From Desulfovibrio desulfuricans DSM 642 (lineage in GTDB: Bacteria; Desulfobacterota; Desulfovibrionia; Desulfovibrionales; Desulfovibrionaceae): a stretch of 64,000 nucleotides of DNA. Below, piece by piece: positions 1 through 61,231 of this stretch. Numbering within the stretch: the first letter of the stretch is position 1; each line of letters starts with the position of its first letter. The DNA is taken from the NCBI RefSeq assembly GCF_000420465.1, contig NZ_ATUZ01000011.1, positions 496,001 to 560,000 of the forward strand, written 5' to 3'. Under the pieces are notes generated by a model. It was given only the letters and a program-made list of their open reading frames with translations, was not told the DNA's origin and did not search any database. The position numbers and the translations under genes are program-made.

Positions 1-1749
1 GCCGCGATCATTGCCATGGACGGCACCGTACTTGGGTACCGCGTTGATAAGCAGCAGGGGAAGAACAAGTTCGTCGGCGCCAATTTTTCTGACAGGGAAT
101 ACTTTGTAAAGAGCAAGAATGGCCAGCCCAGTGTCGTCGGCATGGTTGATGCCACCACTGGTGAGGTGTTCACCGTGCTTGCCATGCCGCTCAAGCTGGA
201 CGGCAAAAACATGGCCGTGCTGGCAGCGGCAATCGACAGTAAAATTCTGGGCAAAAATACCACTGATAAAATCAAGATCGGGCAGAAGGGCATGGTCTAT
301 GCCTACGACCTTCAGGGGCGTATGGTTCTGAACCCGGATGGATCTGCTCTCGGGCGCAATGACAGCAAAATGCCCCATGTGGCGGCACTGCTGCAGCAAA
401 AGGAAGGACGCACCCGCTTTGACAATGGCAAGGGTGAGAAAGGGCTGTACTACAAGCCGCTGCCGCACGAAGGCTGGATTTTGTGCGTGGAATTTGACCG
501 TGGAGAAATCTTCAAACCCATCAGCGACCTGCTGACCAACGCCAGCCTGCTTACTCTGGCCTGTGCGCTGATAGTCGGAACCATGATCTTTTTCTCGGCC
601 CGGGGCATAGTGCGTATGGTGGGCGGTATTTCAGGCGTGGCCGAAGCCGTTGCCGGTGGTCGCCTTGAAACCGACGACAAGGAGCGCGCTCTTTTCAATG
701 CCGCTGAAAAGCGCGGTGACGAATTCAGTACCCTTGCGGCGGGTATGCGGCGCATGGTGCAAAGCATCAGACACCTTTTGAGCGAAAGTGAACATAAAAC
801 ACAGGCCGCGCAGCATGCTACGGAAGAGGCGGAAAAAGCCACAGCAAAAGCCGAAGAAGCTGCGCGTCAGGCCGAGAGCGCCAAGCGCGAGGGCATGCTG
901 ACGGCAGCGGGGCAACTGGAAGAAGTGGTGAGCATTATTTCCGCCGCTTCCACAGAGCTTTCCGCGCAGATCGAGCAGTCGGACAAGAGCGCCGTGGAAT
1001 CCGCACAGCGTCTGGCCGAGGCCGCCACTGCCATGAATGAAATGAACGCCACCGTGCAGGAAGTTGCCCGTAATGCCTCCGCGGCTTCGGCAGTGTCTGC
1101 GGAAACGCGGGCCAATGCTGAAAGCGGTGCGAATATTGTGGAAAACGCCTTGCAGAGCATAGGGCAGGTGCACAAGGTTTCGCTGGCGCTCAAGGGCGAC
1201 ATGACCACGCTGAACCAGCATGCCCAGGCAATTACCCAGATCATGAACGTGATTTCGGACATTGCCGACCAGACCAACCTGCTGGCGCTCAATGCCGCCA
1301 TTGAGGCCGCCCGTGCGGGCGAGGCCGGGCGCGGTTTTGCCGTGGTGGCTGATGAAGTGCGCAAGCTGGCAGAAAAAACCATGGCCTCCACCAATGACGT
1401 GGGCAATGCCATTTCTGCCATCCAGGGCAGCGCAGGGCAGAGTGTTGCCGCCATGGACAAAGCGCTGGCAGAGGTGGAAAAGGCCACCGAGCTTGCAAAG
1501 CAGTCCGGCGAAGCATTGCAGGGAATTGTGACCAAGGTCGAGGAATCGGCAGATCAGGTGAGCGCCATTGCCACGGCCAGCGAACAGCAGTCCGCAACCA
1601 GCGACGAGATCAACCAGTCCATTGTCAGCGTCAACGAAATGTCCAGCCAGACGGCGCAGGCCATGGGCGAGGCTTCGCGGGCCGTGAGCGAGCTTGCCCG
1701 CCAGGCCGAGCGCATGAGCGAACTTATCAGCGAGATGAAGCGCGGCTAG
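1..1749 (+). CDS. Methyl-accepting chemotaxis protein (5' end outside window)
   Basis: A membrane chemoreceptor that passes ligand binding to CheA/CheW. The reading frame is open from base 1, so the first ATG at 16 is probably internal and the N-terminus lies upstream. The visible part starts in the second half of a periplasmic dCache-like domain (NFSDREYF followed by KGMVYAYD). A membrane segment near residues 175-195 and a HAMP-like stretch follow. The cytoplasmic signalling coiled coil carries the conserved hairpin tip around [20 protein letters not shown]. The protein ends KRG without a CheR-docking pentapeptide. A strong hairpin follows the stop. The ligand cannot be told from the sequence. 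Confidence 0.93.
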
Positions 1750-12091: not shown

Positions 12092-12163
12092 GGGCGTTCC
12101 GTACTGTTGCGTCATGCCCGTACGCAGGCGAAACCGCATACCGATCTGTGCAAGGATAGTGTT

Positions 12164-13525
12164 ATGACTGCAAATCCCGCCATGCAGCTGTTGGTGGTGG
12201 ATGACGACCACAACCACCGCGAAATGCTGCGCGCCCTGCTTGAAGAGTGGGGCTACGCGCCCACCGGGGCCTCCAGCGGCGAGGAAGCCCTGGAACTGTG
12301 CCGTGAACGTCCTTTTGACCTGATTCTCATGGATGTGCGCATGGGGGGCATGAGCGGCATAGAAGCCACACGGGCCGTCAAGGCTTACAATCCTGCAATT
12401 CCCATTTTGATCATGACGGCCTACTCGGACGTTTCCAGCGCCGTGGAGGCGCTCAAGGCCGGGGCGTACGACTACCTCACCAAGCCGCTGGCCTTTGACG
12501 CGCTCAAGCTTGCCCTTGAGCGCGCTCTGGATCATGCCAGCCTGCGGCATGAGGTGCGGACTCTGCGCCACGAGCTTGCGGCAGGTCTGGACGCCCGCAA
12601 CGTCATAGGGCAGAGCCAGGCCATGCGGCAGGTGCTGGATCTTGTTTCGGCCATTGCGCCCTCTGAGGCCACAGTGCTTGTGACGGGCGAATCCGGCACC
12701 GGCAAGGAGGTGGTGGCCAAGCTCATCCACGCCAACAGCAACCGCCGCTCTGGCCCCTATGTGGCCGTGAACTGCGCGGCCCTGACGGAAACCCTGCTGG
12801 AATCGGAGCTTTTCGGCCACGAAAAGGGCGCGTTCACGGGGGCGGAAAAGCGCCGCGAGGGGCGGTTTCTGGCAGCGGACAAAGGCACGATCTTTCTGGA
12901 CGAGATTGGCGATATCCCGCTTTCCATGCAGGTAAAGCTGTTGCGCGTCATTCAGGAGCGCGAGTTGCAGCGCGTGGGCGGTGATCAGACCGTGCGGGTG
13001 GATGTTCGTATTCTGGCGGCCACCAACAAGGATCTGGCGTGCGAGGTGGAAGGAGGGCGTTTCCGGCAGGATCTGTATTACCGGCTTAACGTGGTGGCCT
13101 TGCAGTTGCCGCCGTTGCGCGAGCGCGGTGAGGACATCCCCCTGCTTGCCATGCATTTTATGAAGCTTTTTGCCGAGCGCAATGGCAAGACTGTCAAGGG
13201 ATTTACGCCTGGGGCCATGGATCGCCTGTTGAAGCACAACTGGCCCGGCAACGTGCGTGAACTGGAAAATGCCGTGGAGCGGGCGGTGGTGCTGCTGGTG
13301 GGCGAATATATCAGTGAGCGCGAGCTGCCTCCTACCATTGGTGGGCAGGAGGCGGAGGCCCCGGTGGCGTCGCGGCTGGATTTTGCCAATATGACGCTTG
13401 AGGAGATTGAGCGTCTGGCGGTTATGGATACCTTGGCGCAGGTAGGCGGCAACAAGAGCGAGGCTGCGCGGCGTTTGGGGATTAATCGCAAGACGTTGTT
13501 GTCAAAGTTGGGGGACGGGAAATAG
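12164..13525 (+). CDS. Sigma-54-dependent response regulator (ZraR/AtoC type)
   Basis: A 453-residue NtrC-family activator. The receiver domain has phospho-acceptor Asp57 ([10 protein letters not shown]). The AAA+ domain has Walker A GESGTGKE, the sigma-54 contact motif GAFTGA and Walker B region [15 protein letters not shown]-terminal Fis-type helix-turn-helix ([20 protein letters not shown]) follows. All catalytic motifs are intact. The start at 12164 has AAGGA upstream. It pairs with the kinase 72 bases before it and very likely activates the divergent sigma-54 promoter at 9885. Confidence 0.94.
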
Positions 13526-13568
13526 CGCCGCAACGGTGACGAGGCAGCGGGGGAGTTTGTGGAGGGGA

Positions 13569-14280
13569 GAGCCTGTCGAGCGCATTTACGCAAACCCGAC
13601 TTTTTTGGCTTGACAGCGTTAACCTCCTGTTTTTGATGCTCACGTACATGAGTACGCTGCGCTCAAAAACAGGAGTTTTCCTTGTCAGTCCAGAAAAATG
13701 CGTATTTTGCAAATTCACTCAACACCAGCCATCGCCTCCGCGTTGCTTCGGCGAGTATAAGGAAGGCGACTCCACGACAATCTCCTGATGGGGAACAGAC
13801 TTTTCTGACTCGTAATTTATCCGCCTGGTCATGGTTGAAAGGCAATTGGCATCACCACAAGCGGAGTGAAGCTGTCGGTCATGTTCGTGTTGTAATTTGA
13901 TTTTTTTCAGGTTCGTGATGCCAAAATGTCCTGAGGCAATGGAAAAAGGTACAAAGCCATTTCCTGAAGCAGTTTCCGCATTAATGGTATTGGGCTGAAG
14001 CGTATTATTGGTCGAAGCGAAAGCGGACTCTGGCATTAACGCGTCGCGGAGGGAGATCACCTGAGTGAGCGTAGCGAGTGAGGGAAGCTCCCGCAGCAAG
14101 AGACGCGTCGCCCTCGCTGTTTTGTGAAAATTGAGAACCCTCTTTGGGGTGCTTCGGGGGGATGCAAGGGGGGCCGAGAAGGGGGCGTAGCCCCATAACC
14201 GGCCCCGCCTTGCTGCGCGCCGCACAGGCGTCCTAAACTTCGCCAGAGGGCGGAATCCAGTGCCCGAAGGGCAGCAAAAA
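13569..14280 (+). repeat. Long intergenic repeat, copy 1 (about 712 bp)
   Basis: This stretch without a convincing gene aligns end to end with 58757-59460 in the same orientation. Both start GAGCCTGTCGAGCGCATTTA and end TGCCC-GAA/GCA-GGGCAGCAAAAA. Several hairpins are shared: 13624-13675 (13-bp stem), GGGGC-GTA-GCCCC near 14185, and TGCCC-GAA-GGGCA near 14260. Short frames within it (for example 13682-13900, plus) are similar in copy 2, but they change many residues and have no ribosome site. I therefore treat it as non-coding, although a decayed gene is possible. Confidence 0.85.
13624..13675. other. Conserved hairpin in repeat copy 1
   Basis: The arms CTCCTGTTTTTGA and TCAAAAACAGGAG form a perfect 13-bp stem around a loop holding CGTAC-ATGA-GTACG. 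The equivalent in copy 2 keeps perfect pairing with different bases. Confidence 0.8.
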
Positions 14281-14332
14281 GGACTATCATCGGCTAGCCT
14301 AGGCGAAACCGCGCCGCGCAGGCATGAAACTC

Positions 14333-14365
14333 AAAAATCCCCGGTCACGCTACCGTAACCGGGGA
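14333..14365 (-). terminator. Terminator of the DUF4198 gene
   Basis: On the minus strand, TCCCCGGT/ACCGGGGA stems are followed by five T. It lies 18 bases past the stop at 14384. Confidence 0.8.
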
Positions 14366-14383
14366 CTCTCAATTTTCAGCAAG

Positions 14384-15520
14384 CTAGCGCTTCCGCGCCT
14401 CGCTGGAAAGACTGTCCACATACAACCAGAACAGCGTCCCCAGTTGCAGCGGCTTGGGCTGGCCGTCAGGCCCCTTGAGGGGATCGCCGGGAATGCTGGC
14501 CATGCAACACCACCAGCCGGGTTGGCTTAATACAAAGGAGAATTCTCCCTTGTTGTTGGTGCGGGCGGCGATATCCTCATGCCATGAGGTCGGCACGGGG
14601 CGTTTTTCGGTATTTATGCGCGACATGCGTACAGAAGCGGCGGCAAGGGGCTTGCCGTCCATGAGCACCACGCCGGAAAACATGGCGGGCGCAGTAAGAC
14701 CAAAGGGGCGGGAAAGCGGAACGATTTCAAAACGCTGGCCTACGGGCAGGCTCCAGCCGCGCTCAACGCCGTACACCGGCAGCGTTGTTTTGACGTAATG
14801 CTGCAAAAAGCGTCCGTGCGCGGCATCCCACCATGGGCGGCCTTCAATGATGAACTGGTAGAGGCCGGGCTTGGTCAGGGCAACGTTGGTTCCCCATGCC
14901 TTCTGGTTCAGGTAGCGGATTTCTTCCATGTCGCCCAGCAGGTCGCGCCGTTCGGGCTGCGCCACGCCGTCTTTTACCGGTGTGGTGCTGTCGTAACGCA
15001 GCACCGCAAACATCTGCGGCATGTCCATGACCAACCCTTCGTACTGGAAGGGGCGCATCATGGTGATAAGTACGTCTACTTCTTCATCTATCTGTGTGTC
15101 AGTGGGTGCTGGCGCGGGGGCCGCGGCCTGATCCGGCTTGGCCGGGGCGTCTGCCGGGGCAGCATCGCCGTTGGGTGCGGGTTTGCCTTCAGAAGCGGGT
15201 TTGCCTTCGGCAGTGGGTGCAGCGGGGGTTTGTTCCTGCTGTTTGCCAGCGCCATCAGTGGGTTGTTCTGCCTTGCCGGGTGCTGTTTTGGCGTCCTGCT
15301 GGCGTTTTTCGTCTTTTTTATCCTCGCGCTTGGCGGGGGCGTCCTGCTTTGGCCGGGGGGCGGGTGCTTCAATGCTGGGCTGGCTGGGCACCAGCAGGGT
15401 CACCTGCGCCTGCGCGGATGGCGCAAAAAAAAGGAAGGACAAAACAGCCCAACACGCGGCGACAACTGCACTTTTATGTTCAAATAACCCCAGATGACAG
15501 GAACGGTGTGCGCTGGGCAT
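14384..15520 (-). CDS. DUF4198-like periplasmic protein with Pro/Ala/Lys-rich linker
   Basis: A 378-residue exported protein. The signal peptide is at residues 1-36 (VLSFLFFAPSAQA). A low-complexity linker of about 90 residues rich in Pro, Ala, Lys, Glu and Gln follows. The C-terminal domain resembles DUF4198, a beta-sandwich family seen near metal-uptake genes (GLYQFIIEGRPWWDAAHGRFLQHYVKT; later GVVLMDGKPLAAASVRMSRIN and NNKGEFSFVLSQPGWW). The start at 15520 is fixed by AGGAG with 5-nt spacing; the frame runs on to 15814 without support. No transporter genes are adjacent. The linker looks like a spacer across the periplasm. Confidence 0.75.
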   Translation of the reverse strand: MPSAHRSCHLGLFEHKSAVVAACWAVLSFLFFAPSAQAQVTLLVPSQPSIEAPAPRPKQDAPAKREDKKDEKRQQDAKTAPGKAEQPTDGAGKQQEQTPAAPTAEGKPASEGKPAPNGDAAPADAPAKPDQAAAPAPAPTDTQIDEEVDVLITMMRPFQYEGLVMDMPQMFAVLRYDSTTPVKDGVAQPERRDLLGDMEEIRYLNQKAWGTNVALTKPGLYQFIIEGRPWWDAAHGRFLQHYVKTTLPVYGVERGWSLPVGQRFEIVPLSRPFGLTAPAMFSGVVLMDGKPLAAASVRMSRINTEKRPVPTSWHEDIAARTNNKGEFSFVLSQPGWWCCMASIPGDPLKGPDGQPKPLQLGTLFWLYVDSLSSEARKR

Positions 15521-15654
15521 GAAATCTCCTGTGCGCCCAAGCCTGCGGTATGCAGAGGGATTGGCTCTGTTTCCGCACGTAGAGGGCGGGGCGCTAGTGT
15601 ATGTGACCTGTGTATAGCCCAAGAGCATGAGCTTGTCATGTGCTGCGTGCACAC

Positions 15655-16491
15655 TCACCTCGCATGGCTTGGCATATCCGAAATTCCGGCGGCTGTGTTG
15701 AGCGGCGTTCTGGCCGCAAAGACCGCATCCACCCGCGCGGCTCCACCTGCGAGAAGGGCGCTGGCTGCTGCGTTCATGGTGCTGCCAGTGGTCATAACAT
15801 CGTCCACAACCCACACGCGCAGCCCCCTGGCCTCGGGCGAGGCGGCAAAGCTGTGACGCACGTTGCTGCGCCGGTCTCTTGCCCCAAGGCGCGCCTGTTC
15901 CTGACCGGGCACGGGGCGGGAAAGCAGCCTTGAAGACAAAGGCAGACCTGACAGGTCATGCAGGGCACGCGCCAGTTCGTGGGCCTGATTGTACCCTCGG
16001 CGGCGTAAATGGGCGGCATGCTGCGGTACTGCCACTATGGCATCTGGCCGGGGCAGGCAGGCCACGGATTCAAGCAGAAAATTCCCCAGCAGGGGGGCAA
16101 GGTACAGATGCCCGTCAAACTTGAACCGAAGCAGGGTGTGCCGCAGGGATCCCTGATAGAGGCCGTAGAAAGCAGCTCCGCTCCACGGCGGGGGATTTTG
16201 AAGGCATGCGCCGCAGATGCTGTTGCCAGCCTGTGGATCAGAAGGCGGGATTCCGCAGCGCGGGCATCTGGGCCCGGCGTATGGGGCGAGCAGGGCGCTG
16301 CATTGGGGGCAAAGGAGGGATTCCGGCGCTGGCGCGGCATGGGGGTGCGCCGCAAACGCAGGGGAAAAGGGACGCAGACAGTGCAAACAGCGGTCTTGGT
16401 TCAGCCCCAGTGCGTTTTGCATACGGGCCAACACAGAACCCAGCCAGTCATAACGAGCAGGTGGGTGCGGCTGGGGCTTGTTATGTGGCAT
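15655..16491 (-). CDS. ComF family phosphoribosyltransferase-like protein
   Basis: A protein of about 278 residues. The N-terminal zinc-ribbon-like part has paired cysteines (CLHC, CPQC, CPRCG, CGAC). A type I phosphoribosyltransferase domain follows, with the PRPP motif VVDDVMTTGSTMNAAA near the C-terminus. ComF homologues act in DNA uptake or purine salvage; the exact reaction is unknown. The ATG at 16491 is preferred to a TTG at 16512, though neither has a strong ribosome site. It follows the flavodoxin-like gene by 32 bases, probably in one operon. Confidence 0.85.
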   Translation of the reverse strand: MPHNKPQPHPPARYDWLGSVLARMQNALGLNQDRCLHCLRPFSPAFAAHPHAAPAPESLLCPQCSALLAPYAGPRCPRCGIPPSDPQAGNSICGACLQNPPPWSGAAFYGLYQGSLRHTLLRFKFDGHLYLAPLLGNFLLESVACLPRPDAIVAVPQHAAHLRRRGYNQAHELARALHDLSGLPLSSRLLSRPVPGQEQARLGARDRRSNVRHSFAASPEARGLRVWVVDDVMTTGSTMNAAASALLAGGAARVDAVFAARTPLNTAAGISDMPSHAR

Positions 16492-29014: not shown

Positions 29015-30784
29015 ATGCAAAGAATTACGACAATGCAGAAGATGGCAGGCTTGAGTTTGCTCCTGTGCCTGTTCACGGTGATTATTGGCATGTTTGGCGT
29101 CAGCCGCCTGAGCAATCTGGCAACTGACGTTGAGGAACTGAGTTCCATGCACATGAAGGGGCTGGATTTGCTCAGAATGACCAATGTTGAAGTTTTGCGG
29201 ATTATTCGCGAAGAAAAAAATCTTATCATCAGCACCACCGAAGAAGGTAATCGCACCGTCCTGAATAATCTGCAAAAAGAATATGTGGTGCTGGATAAAT
29301 ACAGCAATGAACTGCCGCACTATTTTATGACCGAGACCGCCCGCAAGCTGCTTGCCGAACTGAACGGCCTGCTCAGTGAATGGCGTACAGAACATAACAA
29401 GATTGTTGAACTGGGCAGTACAACAGACCCGGCCATGAATGCAAAGGCGCAGGAACTTTCGTCCACCACCGGGCGGGCTCTGGCGCGAAAGCTGGCTGAT
29501 CTTTTGCACGATATTGGTGAAAAGAAGCTGGAGTTTGCTCAGGAGCTGAGCCGCAAAAGCATGCAGGAGTACGAACGCGCGCGGATGATAACCATTGTGG
29601 GCGTGCTGCTGTCAGTTTTGGTGGGCCTTGGCCTGGGGTATTTTCTTTCGCGCAACATGCTGCGCCAGCTTGGCGACGAGCCGGCCTCACTCTCAGAGCT
29701 TGCCTTGCAGATTGCAGGCGGGGATCTGGAGGCAAAGTTTAATCCTGCACGGCCTGAGATCGGCGTTTTTGGCGCAATGAAGCAGATGGTGGGCACCCTC
29801 AAGGGTAAAATTGCGGAGGCTGATCAAAAGAGCCAGCAGGCCAAAGAAGAATCCGAGCGCGCCCAGAAGGCCACTGCCGATGCGGAAGAAGCACGTCGCC
29901 AGGCCGAGCGCGCCAAGGCCGAGGGCATGCTTCAGGCTGCCCACCAGCTTGAAGGCGTGGTAGAAATCGTAACCTCCGCTTCCGAGGAGCTTTCCGCTCA
30001 GGTTGAGCAGTCGAGCCGTGGCGCGGACGAGCAGTCCGCGCGTGTGCGCGAAACCGCAACCGCCATGGAAGAAATGAACGCCACCGTGCTGGAAGTTGCC
30101 AGAAACGCGCAACAGGCTGCGGATGTCTCAAGCAATGCCAGAAAGCAGGCCATTGAAGGCTCGCAGATAGTGAATGAGGCTGTAAAGGGCATAAGCACCG
30201 TGCACACGCAGTCGCTGGCCCTCAAACAGGATATGGATGCCCTTGGCAAACAGGCTGAGAGCATCGGGCAGGTAATGGGCGTTATTGCCGACATTGCCGA
30301 TCAGACCAACCTGCTTGCGCTTAACGCCGCCATTGAGGCTGCGCGCGCTGGTGATGCTGGCCGTGGCTTTGCCGTGGTGGCGGACGAAGTGCGCAAACTG
30401 GCAGAAAAAACCATGACCGCAACACAGGAAGTGGGCCGAGCCATCAAGGAAATTCAGGAAGGCACAAAGAAAAACATTCAAAGCGTGGAATTCACAGGCG
30501 AATCTATTGAAGCCGCCACAAAGCTCTCCGTGCAGTCGGGCGAATCGCTGAAAAATATTCTTGAGTGTGTGCAGCTTGTTAACGATCAGGTGCAGTCAAT
30601 TGCCACCGCTAGCGAGCAGCAGTCTGCCGCCAGTGAAGAAATCAACCGCTCTGTGGAACAGGTGGCTACAATCTCTGCTGAAACCGCTCAAGCCATGGAG
30701 CAGGCTTCCAGCGCAGTCGCCGATCTTGCGCAGCAGTCGCAAACGCTTCAGCATCTGATTGGCGAGATGAAACGCCAGGGCTAG
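29015..30784 (+). CDS. Methyl-accepting chemotaxis protein (four-helix-bundle sensor)
   Basis: A complete 589-residue chemoreceptor. The first helix is at residues 10-28. An all-helical periplasmic domain of about 150 residues (4HB_MCP type) follows, then a second helix at about 192-212 ([19 protein letters not shown]) and a HAMP with the [11 protein letters not shown] start. A long coiled coil carries the signalling tip [20 protein letters not shown]. The signalling half is close to that of the receptor at the left edge of the window, but the sensor domains differ. It ends KRQG without a CheR-binding pentapeptide. The ATG has AGGA 7 nt upstream. No che genes are nearby. Confidence 0.94.
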
Positions 30785-57831: not shown

Positions 57832-58029
57832 TCTAAGCCTCCTGCCGCCGCGTTTCATGGCTTGTTCCGTTCGCGGCGTGTGGCCCATGTGTAGCAGAAG
57901 GGCGCGAGGAAAAAAAGCCCCGCAAGGGGGCTTGGGCCGCCGGGATGCTCTTTGCATTTGCGCCCGCACGGCGTAGAATAAGCAAAGCGCATTCAAACCC
58001 AAACTTTTTTGTGCGCAAGAGAGGTAGTT

Positions 58030-58704
58030 ATGAAGTTGTTTCGCCGTGGTTTGCTGTTGCCGCTGGTGCTGCTGATGGGCGCATTGGTTGCGGCCTGCGT
58101 TACTTCCGGCCCGCAAAAGGCGCTGAATGATGTGGCCGACGCCCTGAACAAAAATGACGGCGCGGCCTTTCTGGCACAACTGGACATGAAGCCCTTTGCA
58201 ACCAACCAGATTAAAAATATGACTCGTGAAGATCAGGCGCTCAACGCTCTGGATTCCATGGGGCGCTTGCTGGGGCTGGGCGGTATGGAAGACCTGCTGG
58301 GCAGCGTGGTGGACATGCAGGCGCGCCTGCAAAAGCAGTATATGCGCGGCGTGAGCACGGGCGAGCTGGTGGCCCAGTGCGGCAAGGCTGACACTCCTGA
58401 CTGCCCGTGGGTGCCTGAAAGCCTGAAGGCCGCCAAGATTACCGAGCTTGGGGCCGATGCGGCCGTTGTGCAGGTGACCACGCCCGCCCGCATGACCAGT
58501 TGGCTTGCCCTGCGCAAGGTGGGCGAGAAGTGGCTGGTGGTTGGGCAGGCCGTGATGGAAAGCACTGCTAGGGAATATGCGTTGCAGAAGGCCCCGGCGG
58601 CTCCTGAAAAGCCTGCGCCGGTTGCGCCCACGCCCAAGGAAGCGCCGGAGAAGACTCCTGTGCCGGGGAATCGGGCTGACAAGGATGGCGTGACGAAGAT
58701 TTAG
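58030..58704 (+). CDS. Hypothetical lipoprotein
   Basis: A 224-residue exported protein with a clear lipobox LVAAC at residues about 20-24 (PLVLLMGALVAAC). The mature part is helical with QKALNDVADALNKNDGAAFLAQLDM and a DUF4878-like ending (AAVVQVTTPARMTSWLALRKVGEKWLVVGQ). A Pro/Ala/Lys/Glu-rich tail follows. It is probably anchored in the outer membrane. The start at 58030 has AGAGG upstream. It stands alone, just before repeat copy 2. Function unknown. Confidence 0.8.
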   Translation: MKLFRRGLLLPLVLLMGALVAACVTSGPQKALNDVADALNKNDGAAFLAQLDMKPFATNQIKNMTREDQALNALDSMGRLLGLGGMEDLLGSVVDMQARLQKQYMRGVSTGELVAQCGKADTPDCPWVPESLKAAKITELGADAAVVQVTTPARMTSWLALRKVGEKWLVVGQAVMESTAREYALQKAPAAPEKPAPVAPTPKEAPEKTPVPGNRADKDGVTKI

Positions 58705-58756: not shown

Positions 58757-59460
58757 GAGCCTGTCGAGCGCATTTACGCAAACCCGACTTTTGCACCCTG
58801 AATGCGTCAGCGCCGGGATTTTGATGCTCACGTACTTGAGTACGCTGCGCTCAAAATCCCGGCGTTTCCTTTTCAGGCCGCAAAACGCGTATTTTGCAAA
58901 TTCGCCCAACACCAGCCATCGCCTCCGCTCTGCTCCGGCGAGTTTAAGGAAGGTAACCCCACAACCATCTCCTGATGGAGGAGATACTTCTTGGACTCGT
59001 AATTTATCTGTCTGGTCATGGCTGAATGGTAATTGGTATGACCACAGGTGAAGTGAATCTGTTGGTTATGTTAGTGTTGTAATTTGGTTTTCTCCAAGTT
59101 TGTGAGGCTGAAAGCTCAGAGCTGTCGAGAAGGGTATAAAGTCATTCCCAGAGTCAACACTGCATCAATGGTATTGGGCTGAAGCGGAATAGCATTCAAA
59201 GCAAAAGTGTACTCTGGCATTAACGCGGCGCGGAGGGAGATCCCCTGAGCGAGCGCAGCGAGCGAGGGAAGCTCCCGCAGCTATGGCCGCGTTGCCCTCG
59301 CCGTTTTGCGGAAGCTGAAAACCTGAAGGGGTGTTCCGGGGGGAGTGCAGAGGGGGCCGAGGAGGGGCGTAGCCCCTAACAGGCCCCCTTTGCCCCACGC
59401 CGCGCAGGCGTCCCAAACACCGCCGGAGGGTGGAACCCAGTGCCCGCAGGGCAGCAAAAA
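58757..59460 (+). repeat. Long intergenic repeat, copy 2 (about 704 bp)
   Basis: It aligns along its whole length with 13569-14280 in the same orientation, with the same start and end sequences and the same series of hairpins: 58811-58864, AGGGGC-GTA-GCCCCT near 59370, and TGCCC-GCA-GGGCA near 59448. It fills most of the gap between the lipoprotein gene and hflX. As in copy 1, frames inside it (58755-59051, plus) have no ribosome site. Confidence 0.85.
58811..58864. other. Conserved hairpin in repeat copy 2
   Basis: The arms CGCCGGGATTTTGA and TCAAAATCCCGGCG form a perfect 14-bp stem around CGTAC-TTGA-GTACG. The bases differ from copy 1 on both sides of the stem while pairing is kept. Confidence 0.8.
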
Positions 59461-59581
59461 GAATTAGTTTCTGGCAGGTTAGGCGTAAACACGCCGCGCA
59501 GGCGTCCAAACCCCGCCGGGGGCGGAATTTAGTGCCCGCAGGGCAGCAAAAATAATCAATCGCCGCCGCGCAGGCAGCCCC
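59461..59581 (+). repeat. Tandem partial copy of the repeat tail
   Basis: From 59491 the last ~64 bases of the repeat (starting ACGCCGCGCAGGCGTCC and ending GGGCAGCAAAAA) occur again, 94 bases after the first occurrence at 59397. A third truncated start (CGCCGCGCAGGCAG) is at about 59564. The hflX stop follows directly. Confidence 0.7.
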
Positions 59582-61231
59582 CTAATTCAGCACTGTCGGC
59601 GCATCAGTCGCCACCATACTCGCAGGATGCCGCAGCAATAAAAGCTCCAGCTCCTCCAGCAAGGCCTTGCAGCCCTCGCCATTCTTTGCGGAAATCGTCA
59701 ATGCATCGGGGAAGGCATCCGCCAGCTCAGCGCGGGCCGGGGCTTCCAGTTGATCCCACTTGTTCAGAATCATCAGCCTCGGCATGCGATCCAGTTCCAT
59801 TTCGGCAAGGATGCTTTCCACAGCGCTCATCTGCTGCAAAAGGTCAGGATGCGAGGCATCGGCAACGTGCAGCAAAAGATCCGCCGCTTCCAGCTCCTCA
59901 AGGGTCGCGCGAAAGGCGTCCATCAGCTCCTTGGGCAGATTGCGGATAAAGCCCACGGTGTCGGCCATGATGATTTCTTTTTCCGCAGGGAAGCGCAGCC
60001 GTCGGGTGGTGGGGTCAAGCGTGGCGAAGAGTTTGTTTTCGGCCAGCACTTCCGAGCGGGTAAGCGTGTTGAGCAGGGTGGACTTGCCCGCATTGGTGTA
60101 GCCCACAAGGGCCGCCAGCGGGATGCCCTGCCGTGAGCGCCGGGCGCGGGTAAATGAGCGCTGCCGCCGCAACTGGTCAAGCTCTTTGCGGATGCGGGCC
60201 ATGCGCTCGCGGATTTTGCGGCGGTCGGTCTCCAGCTTGGTTTCGCCGGGGCCGCGCCCGCCAATGCCGCCCATGAGGCGGTCCATGGCGCGGTTTCTGC
60301 CCACAAGGCGCGGTTGGGTATAGCGCAACTGGGCCAGCTCCACCTGGAGCTTGCCCGCGCGGCTCACCGCGTGCTGGGCAAAAATATCCAGAATAAGCTG
60401 GGTGCGGTCAATGACCTTGCGCTCGGTGATGTCTGCCAGATTGTGCAACTGAGCGGGCGAAAGCTCGCCGTCAAAAACCATCATGCCTGCGCGGCCTTGC
60501 AGGGCCAGCACTTCAAGTTCTGCCACCTTGCCCTTGCCCATGATGAGGCGCGGATTGATCTGCGCCACGCGCTGCACCATGCGCCCGGCTACAGTCAGCC
60601 CTGCGGTGCGGGCCAGTTCCGCCAGTTCGTCCAGATTGCGCTCCTGAATGATGCGCGGCTGCGTGCCTACAGAAACCAGCATGGCGCGGGGGGTATCGTC
60701 CGCCTCGCGGGCGTCCTCTGCCTTGCGGGCAAGCTCTTCTTCCAGGGCTTCCGCCGTGGCCACAAACTGTGATTCCGTGCGGTCCCAGGGCTGGGGTGTA
60801 TCAAGGTGATAGGGCTGGCCGCCCGAAGGATTGGGCAAAAGATGGGCCGCCTGCCACTGCACGGGGTCGCCAACCGGGTTCACTGTGAGCGCCACCACGG
60901 CATCCAGCCGCAGAAAGAGCATGTCCATCAGGTCTTCCTGACTGATGCCGCCGGGGGAAAGGTGGGTGTGCAGCAGGCGCAGGCCGCGCAGGCGTTCCTG
61001 CCCGCTGCGACCGCGCGGCAGTTCAGGAATCATGATGCTGCCCGCCTCGCCCACAATAACCATCTGCACCCGGCCCTTGCGGTCAATGAGCAGGCCCAGT
61101 TGCCGCCCCACGGCGCGTGAAAGCAGGGAGAGTTCCCGCGCCTGGTCAACGGTGTAGACTTCTTCCGCCGGGAAACGGCGGTTGAACAGACGGGTGAGTG
61201 CTGCAAGCTGGCTCGGCTTGAGCCCTTGCAC
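59582..61231 (-). CDS. hflX: Ribosome-associated GTPase HflX
   Basis: A 549-residue GTPase that splits or rescues stalled ribosomes. The HflX-specific region has the Gly-rich linker GGIGGRGPGETKLETDRR and arginine-rich helices. The G domain has G1 GYTNAGKST, G3 DTVGFIRNLP and G4 NKWD. It has an extra N-terminal domain of about 180 residues, as in long HflX forms. The annotated start GTG at 61231 has only AAGG nearby. A better AGGAG lies 27 bases upstream, where the frame is still open, so the true start may be further upstream at a non-standard codon (ATC at 61252). Confidence 0.92.
   Translation of the reverse strand: MQGLKPSQLAALTRLFNRRFPAEEVYTVDQARELSLLSRAVGRQLGLLIDRKGRVQMVIVGEAGSIMIPELPRGRSGQERLRGLRLLHTHLSPGGISQEDLMDMLFLRLDAVVALTVNPVGDPVQWQAAHLLPNPSGGQPYHLDTPQPWDRTESQFVATAEALEEELARKAEDAREADDTPRAMLVSVGTQPRIIQERNLDELAELARTAGLTVAGRMVQRVAQINPRLIMGKGKVAELEVLALQGRAGMMVFDGELSPAQLHNLADITERKVIDRTQLILDIFAQHAVSRAGKLQVELAQLRYTQPRLVGRNRAMDRLMGGIGGRGPGETKLETDRRKIRERMARIRKELDQLRRQRSFTRARRSRQGIPLAALVGYTNAGKSTLLNTLTRSEVLAENKLFATLDPTTRRLRFPAEKEIIMADTVGFIRNLPKELMDAFRATLEELEAADLLLHVADASHPDLLQQMSAVESILAEMELDRMPRLMILNKWDQLEAPARAELADAFPDALTISAKNGEGCKALLEELELLLLRHPASMVATDAPTVLN

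Follow-up and report, generated by a model that had tools for sequence, protein, structure and literature searches.

The window analysed here, a stretch of 64,000 nt of the genome of Desulfovibrio desulfuricans DSM 642, carries two copies of a composite, non-coding, palindromic intergenic repeat that does not look like the remnant of a gene. We consider it probable that the repeat is an ERIC/BIME-like palindromic mosaic, related to a MITE, which is now immobile, whose copies are homogenised, and which is under a constraint of DNA type. Small bacterial repeats have mostly been treated as either mobile elements or hairpins in RNA. Sites that are stable between species and are occupied by copies still being homogenised differ from this usual view; what surprises in the picture is the constraint of DNA type, together with the stability of sites that lie behind rRNA operons and between convergent genes. 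An account of such a repeat was not found in the literature searched.

The two stretches (positions 13569-14280 and 58757-59460) had been noticed in a preliminary description of the window as intergenic sequences of about 0.7 kb in the same orientation that share a series of hairpins. Both observations were confirmed: the stretches align end to end (blastn, 80% identity over 1-712, E 1.8e-176), and the core of the module designated A folds as single-stranded DNA more stably than any of 200 shuffled sequences, on either strand of either copy (z -5.2 to -7.7). Nor do the sequences look coding. Stops interrupt all six frames in every one of the six full-length copies of the own genome; the frame with the longest open stretch (90 to 186 aa) varies from copy to copy, and so does the length (704-718 nt), by amounts that are not multiples of three. 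A coding remnant was rejected on these grounds, even though single copies are open over up to 186 aa (copy 1, minus strand). The suggestion of a decayed coding unit could not be upheld. Another pair of similar stretches in the window (835-1412 and 29867-30444; 29 kb apart, 72-81% identity) is placed inside long reading frames and may represent chemotaxis receptor paralogs.

A search of the own genome (G000; 3.39 Mb, 20 contigs), using 13569-14280 as the blastn query, revealed a family that could not be seen in the preliminary description: 37 pieces at 16 sites. Module A is present at 15 of the 16 sites, at one of them (C18:61138) in an interrupted form, and the remaining site (C13:313064-313444) carries modules C and E only; six copies align over their full length. 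Comparison of the copies across sites showed that the unit is a mosaic with the order A-B-C1-C2-E (Table 1). Module A (query positions 1-226, about 220 nt), the best conserved of the modules, consists of a long quasi-palindrome and a side hairpin. It is followed by the variable middle B, whose length and sequence depend on the site and which is alignable in some sites only, by the structured C1 (about 85 nt), by C2, a G+C-rich nested hairpin occurring in two versions, and by E (about 62 nt), found as one to three units per locus in the G000 and G013 loci examined. The modules come apart in other species: genome G017 contains C1/C2/E-like units without A, and each of 8 G058 sites has two to four tandem copies of module A. 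In every one of the eight G017 stretches read (L078-L085), the arrays are directed away from a central segment of about 270-450 nt. Inserts of about 150 nt were also encountered, in C2 of an rRNA-linked copy (L063:1165-1314, with a comparable gap in the C match of L075) and in module A of another locus, which is split at its apex (L066:2215-2368).

Table 1. Coordinates of the repeat modules and neighbouring genes in the window
Feature	Position	Strand	Basis and remarks
Gene before copy 1: sigma-54-dependent response regulator, NtrC/ZraR type	12107..13525	+	below curated cut-offs of single equivalogs
Module A, copy 1	13569..13791	+	R1 match 262.5 bits, positions 1-223; quasi-palindrome, side hairpin, conserved boxes
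Quasi-palindromic core of A, copy 1	13588..13712	.	apex ACGTACATGAGTACG, unpaired internal loops; fold z -5.2 (+), -6.6 (-)
Side hairpin of A (CGCC...GGCG), copy 1	13732..13755	.	consensus fold of A alignment
Variable middle B, copy 1	13792..14031	.	copy comparison, module blast
C1, copy 1	14032..14117	+	GGCATT..ACGCGTC..GAGGGAGATC..GCTCCC..GACGCGT..GCCCTCGC; alignment of 32 sequences, counts in 73
C2, copy 1	14146..14213	+	G+C-rich nested hairpin, from sequence
Tail E, copy 1, single	14217..14280	+	module E blast
Convergent gene after copy 1 (DUF4198)	14384..15814	-	family match
Gene before copy 2 (231 aa)	58009..58704	+	family search without match
Module A, copy 2	58757..58978	+	R1 match 260.1 bits; other stem type GCGCCGGGATTTTGA/TCAAAATCCCGGCG
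Quasi-palindromic core of A, copy 2	58776..58898	.	single-strand DNA fold z -6.5 (+), -7.7 (-)
Variable middle B, copy 2	58979..59215	.	alignment of copies
C1, copy 2	59216..59301	+	alignment
C2, copy 2, alternative hairpin version	59328..59396	+	alignment
Tail E, copy 2, first unit	59398..59460	+	module E blast
Tail E, copy 2, second unit	59492..59552	+	blastn; module E blast
Convergent gene after copy 2: GTP-binding GTPase (GTP-bdg_N/M, MMR_HSR1)	59582..61231	-	family match

A consensus stem runs through A, with the internal loops GCGTCA and TTCCTTG (GCGTTG and CGCCTTG in the version of genus g20) and an apex around GTAC-NNNN-GTAC. The quasi-palindrome is about 125 nt long; loops and apex are conserved, and the loops are unpaired. 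A covariation analysis of the copies, one of the checks proposed in the preliminary description, was performed on 34 copies from 16 genomes. In these, 93.6% of the cells of the stem were paired and 25 of the 34 stem pairs displayed double-sided changes, several pairs occurring in all four Watson-Crick types; helices covarying in this way are a feature of structured non-coding RNAs. None of 500 shuffles equalled the stem in its paired percentage, its double changes or its covariation score, though 161 of them reached its number of further pair types. Control structures slid along A had 42-51% of cells paired. The alignment used for testing had also served to predict the structure, which is favoured by this, but the margin over the controls is wide. 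The arm sequences of A thus change and yet remain complementary. The RNA fold of the minus strand of A is the more stable one in most genomes, which we did not count as evidence.

The distribution of the repeat among other genomes was studied with a covariance model built from A only (R1). Matches were obtained in 15 of the 61 genomes of the genus, and the majority of those listed cover the full length; G002 and G023 have one match each (partial in G002), and G006, G017 and G021 have none. Among 247 genomes of the order (nine candidates scored per genome), 33 gave matches, and these include further genera of the family. A second genus of the family, g20, contains 7 to 9 in each of six genomes, and two single weak matches were found outside the family. 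The repeat had no blastn match in the phage and plasmid collections. The exact apex pattern of A was absent from the genome contig collection. A C1 pattern occurred in 8 stretches from two metagenome-assembled genomes, and a C1 pattern was not found in viral contigs. Quasi-palindromes of about 150 bp, capped by an apex resembling that of A, are present in six contigs of the viral collection (L094-L099); the one in L098 matches 31 plasmid records, mostly of Sphingobium and Shinella. This may reflect either a wider class of elements or convergence.

In the window, A starts 43 nt (copy 1) and 52 nt (copy 2) after the stop of the upstream gene. Of the 16 G000 sites, three are linked to rRNA; heuristic gene calls for the other 13 placed the repeat in the sense orientation behind the upstream gene at 12 of the 13, 27-193 nt after the stop (distance to A, at one site to C). 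Ten of these 13 sites are located between convergent genes, an arrangement that 8 of the window's 39 gene pairs have (binomial p 2e-5). The placement is more varied when all 57 loci of 13 genomes are taken together (33 sense, 22 opposite, 2 unknown), and outside G000 just 9 of 44 loci are convergent. The ten upstream genes searched are ordinary ones, encoding an NtrC-type regulator, SpeA, AhpC, an MnmA-like protein, a family A DNA polymerase, CysK, LysO, CobI, a LuxR-type regulator and one protein without a match. At several loci A is preceded by 5S rRNA (L063 in G000, L232-L234 in G058, L270 in G181), and the G000 contigs C6 and C8 start with the sequence found after 5S in L063. In L063 a terminator-like hairpin (170-188) is situated between the 5S gene and A, which starts at 271 (the scan found 4 such sites, shuffles 2.4). 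In general, the promoter and terminator scans gave nothing clearly beyond shuffles. A replichore polarity was considered for G058, where the 21 full A copies of the 8 sites are on the + strand at 0.50-1.19 Mb and on the - strand at 2.37-2.74 Mb. Judged from coordinates without a located origin, it was rejected: a shorter match at 824095 is on the - strand, against the pattern, and G072 has no such order.

The balance of mispairs tells a DNA-type from an RNA-type constraint: if an RNA from one strand of A were the functional form, its stem should tolerate G-U pairs but not A-C pairs. In 82 copies of A from 22 genomes we counted 2508 Watson-Crick, 49 G-U, 60 A-C and 87 other pairs; the first set of 62 copies gave 43 G-U and 49 A-C, and a set with a maximum of two copies per genome 17 and 13, respectively. 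The control was RNase P RNA from the same genus, which a search recovered in 19 of 20 genomes; passed through the same pipeline, its 19 sequences had 1920 Watson-Crick, 161 G-U, 8 A-C and 16 other pairs. The contrast is strong (Fisher p 5e-22, a value that overstates it, the cells being non-independent because the copies are related), and it shrinks but persists when only pairs that are at least 80% Watson-Crick are considered (G-U to A-C 27:31 in A, 37:7 in RNase P). Since G-U and A-C are equally rare in A, without the strand-specific G-U tolerance of a structured non-coding RNA, the constraint appears to differ from that on a one-strand RNA. It is strand-neutral, of the kind exerted on a DNA hairpin or cruciform, or on hairpins in RNA of both strands, and looks like selection on the shape of DNA rather than on an RNA.

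A large structured RNA behind genes, either a 3' UTR or a stand-alone non-coding RNA with A and C1 as its domains, is an unlikely explanation. The preliminary description had named a structured RNA among its candidates; the structure is borne out, and the mispair balance of A speaks against a molecule of one strand. The conservation of stems and of unpaired boxes and the sense placement at 12 of 13 G000 sites would suit such an RNA, as would C1, with 10 G-U against 2 A-C in 73 sequences; this module leans towards RNA but is too conserved to decide between the two types. Against it stand, besides the nearly equal G-U and A-C counts of A, the terminator-like hairpin that precedes A behind 5S in L063 and the mixed orientation to genes in other clades. 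The Rfam families had no match in the window and matched only rRNA in the 39 loci scanned, and a known RNA family was rejected on this ground.

Hairpins working in the RNA of both strands would equally lack a G-U/A-C bias, as expected of a bidirectional terminator, or a protector of mRNA 3' ends, between convergent genes. The convergent placement of 10 of the 13 G000 sites and the strand-neutral complementarity of A are in line with this, and at copy 1 the interval from the upstream stop to A lacks any other site resembling a terminator. However, the simple scan found none in the element either (0 in 13400-14500), the element is far longer than a terminator, L063 already has a terminator-like hairpin before A, and the convergent arrangement is confined to 9 of 44 loci outside G000. 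Moreover, in G017 and G021 the gap between the copy-2 genes is short and holds an ordinary short hairpin instead. We consider such a function rather improbable.

The sites of the repeat proved to be stable between species. In genome G068, 14 of the 15 sites examined (13 of 14 stretches plus the copy-1 site, aligned over 2801 nt at 88%) map to sites of G000; the single unmatched stretch, L225, ends with its contig. G000 also has sites in common with G058, G013 and G011 (L232 and L233 of G058 gave no flank match; L169 and L170 were outside the comparison), and shared sites were detected between G007 and G054, between G004 and G054, and also within genus g20. At known orthologous sites the ortholog was the best G000 match in only 2 of 29 comparisons of A and 3 of 24 of C, and copies at different sites of G058 reach 95-100% identity. 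Within one genome, copies often resemble each other more closely than they do their orthologs. Such homogenisation of sequences that keep their positions points to gene conversion.

A possible origin of A is indicated by the copy-2 gene gap of other genomes. In G075 this gap contains a palindrome with the TIR ends GGGGCTGTYTCTAAAT/ATTTAGAAACAGCCCC, which has inside it the architecture of A, including the same internal GCTGCGTCA/TTCCTTGCC loops; G072 has a degenerate palindrome at this place. The end pattern of this MITE (up to 3 mismatches) was detected in 9 of 61 genomes, and a reversed control in none. G000 has three end matches with 2-3 mismatches (C11:78668, C16:259536, C16:159693), and there are none in the window. 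Sixteen loci of the GGGGCTGTYTCTAAAT MITE were read, 13 of them with both ends in reach; 7 of these 13 copies are 144-150 bp long and 8 are bordered by TA on both sides. R1 recognises the MITE in 6 of the 15 loci given to it (rough E 6e-7 to 9e-4) and misses 9. In view of the shared architecture and this recognition, A is best seen as a longer, immobile relative of the MITE, and on this comparison of sequences the whole unit is probably MITE-related.

Near-identical copies of the MITE occur in different surroundings (L280 in G000, L286 in G068), and these, together with the many dispersed copies of the repeat, would be consistent with a selfish, non-autonomous transposon family that is still mobile and needs its hairpin for transposition by an unknown transposase. 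This explanation has little probability, as the A-C-E sites are common to species and no matching transposase for A or the MITE was found in the two families searched. The Y1 transposase (PF01797) is absent from G000 (it is present in 34 of 61 genomes of the genus), and DDE_3 (PF13358) is absent from G000 and from all 9 MITE-bearing genomes (it was found in 2 of 21, G041 and G050); a REP family driven by RAYT and a DDE_3-driven element were rejected on these grounds. A TIR or target duplication around A was not made out by eye in G000. Of the mobile non-coding element envisaged in the preliminary description, therefore, the likely origin is retained and the present behaviour is not. It is just as improbable that template switching, correcting a quasi-palindrome as it is replicated, is all that keeps the arms complementary, with no function involved: this would account for strand-neutral complementarity without selection, but simple correction should erase the internal loops and apex of A, which are largely unpaired and conserved.

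The immobile, MITE-related mosaic that we prefer could have arisen as follows. Module A would be descended from, or share an ancestor with, a TIR/TA palindromic MITE of the genus; it would have been inserted long ago, lost its mobility and been held at stable sites. Homologous recombination would homogenise the copies, by gene conversion and by tandem gain and loss of A and E. A more tentative step is selection for a hairpin or cruciform formed by the DNA where transcription units end, behind rRNA operons or between convergent genes; such a structure may absorb torsion there or dock a protein that bends DNA or binds hairpins. We propose this torsional or docking role as a model; a nucleoid or chromosome-organising site, also considered in the preliminary description, is a candidate compatible with the data. 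The fuller version, in which DNA-hairpin sites occur throughout the family as domesticated descendants of a palindromic MITE, lie behind rRNA operons and core genes, are selected for the extruded structure, are homogenised over the chromosome by gene conversion and serve a topological or docking role where transcription units end, is possible but doubtful.

Among known systems, the GTAG/CGTC-tagged REPs resemble A in being palindromic DNA repeats for which cruciform formation is discussed, and differ in their size of 20-40 bp and in their unpaired tag (PMC3733652); 'Desulfo' has 0 occurrences in the main text of that paper. The REP units of REPs and BIMEs measure 20-40 bp, the modules described here about 60-220 nt. 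REP-built BIMEs (PMC2817692) are similar to our unit as intergenic mosaics of hairpin modules in variable number and tandem units; the present modules are far larger, and the genome lacks a RAYT/Y1 transposase (0 Y1_Tnp matches in G000). The palindromic TA-target MITEs Correia/NEMIS and RUP (PMC2229807) are paralleled by the GGGGCTGTYTCTAAAT element of the genus, which likewise has TIRs and, in part of its copies, TA flanks. An IS630-type MITE would be accompanied by a matching transposase in the same genomes, and the 9 MITE-bearing ones are without DDE_3 (PF13358); A itself is longer and not visibly bounded by TIRs.

There is also a likeness in architecture to ERIC/IRU/RU-1 of enterobacteria, which PMC2229807 presents as palindromes of the 100-200 bp class that are scattered between genes and have long stems, MITE-like and with TA at their ends; the same TA is found in part of the copies of the MITE related to A. 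Around A itself in G000, no TIR or target duplication was made out. ERIC/IRU is a single imperfect palindrome of about 127 bp; the palindrome of A, about 125 nt, is one module of a composite of about 0.7 kb, whose sites are shared between species and whose copies are homogenised. The comparison of G-U with A-C mispairs against an RNA control from the same genus is applicable to ERIC, BIME and other palindromic repeats as well.
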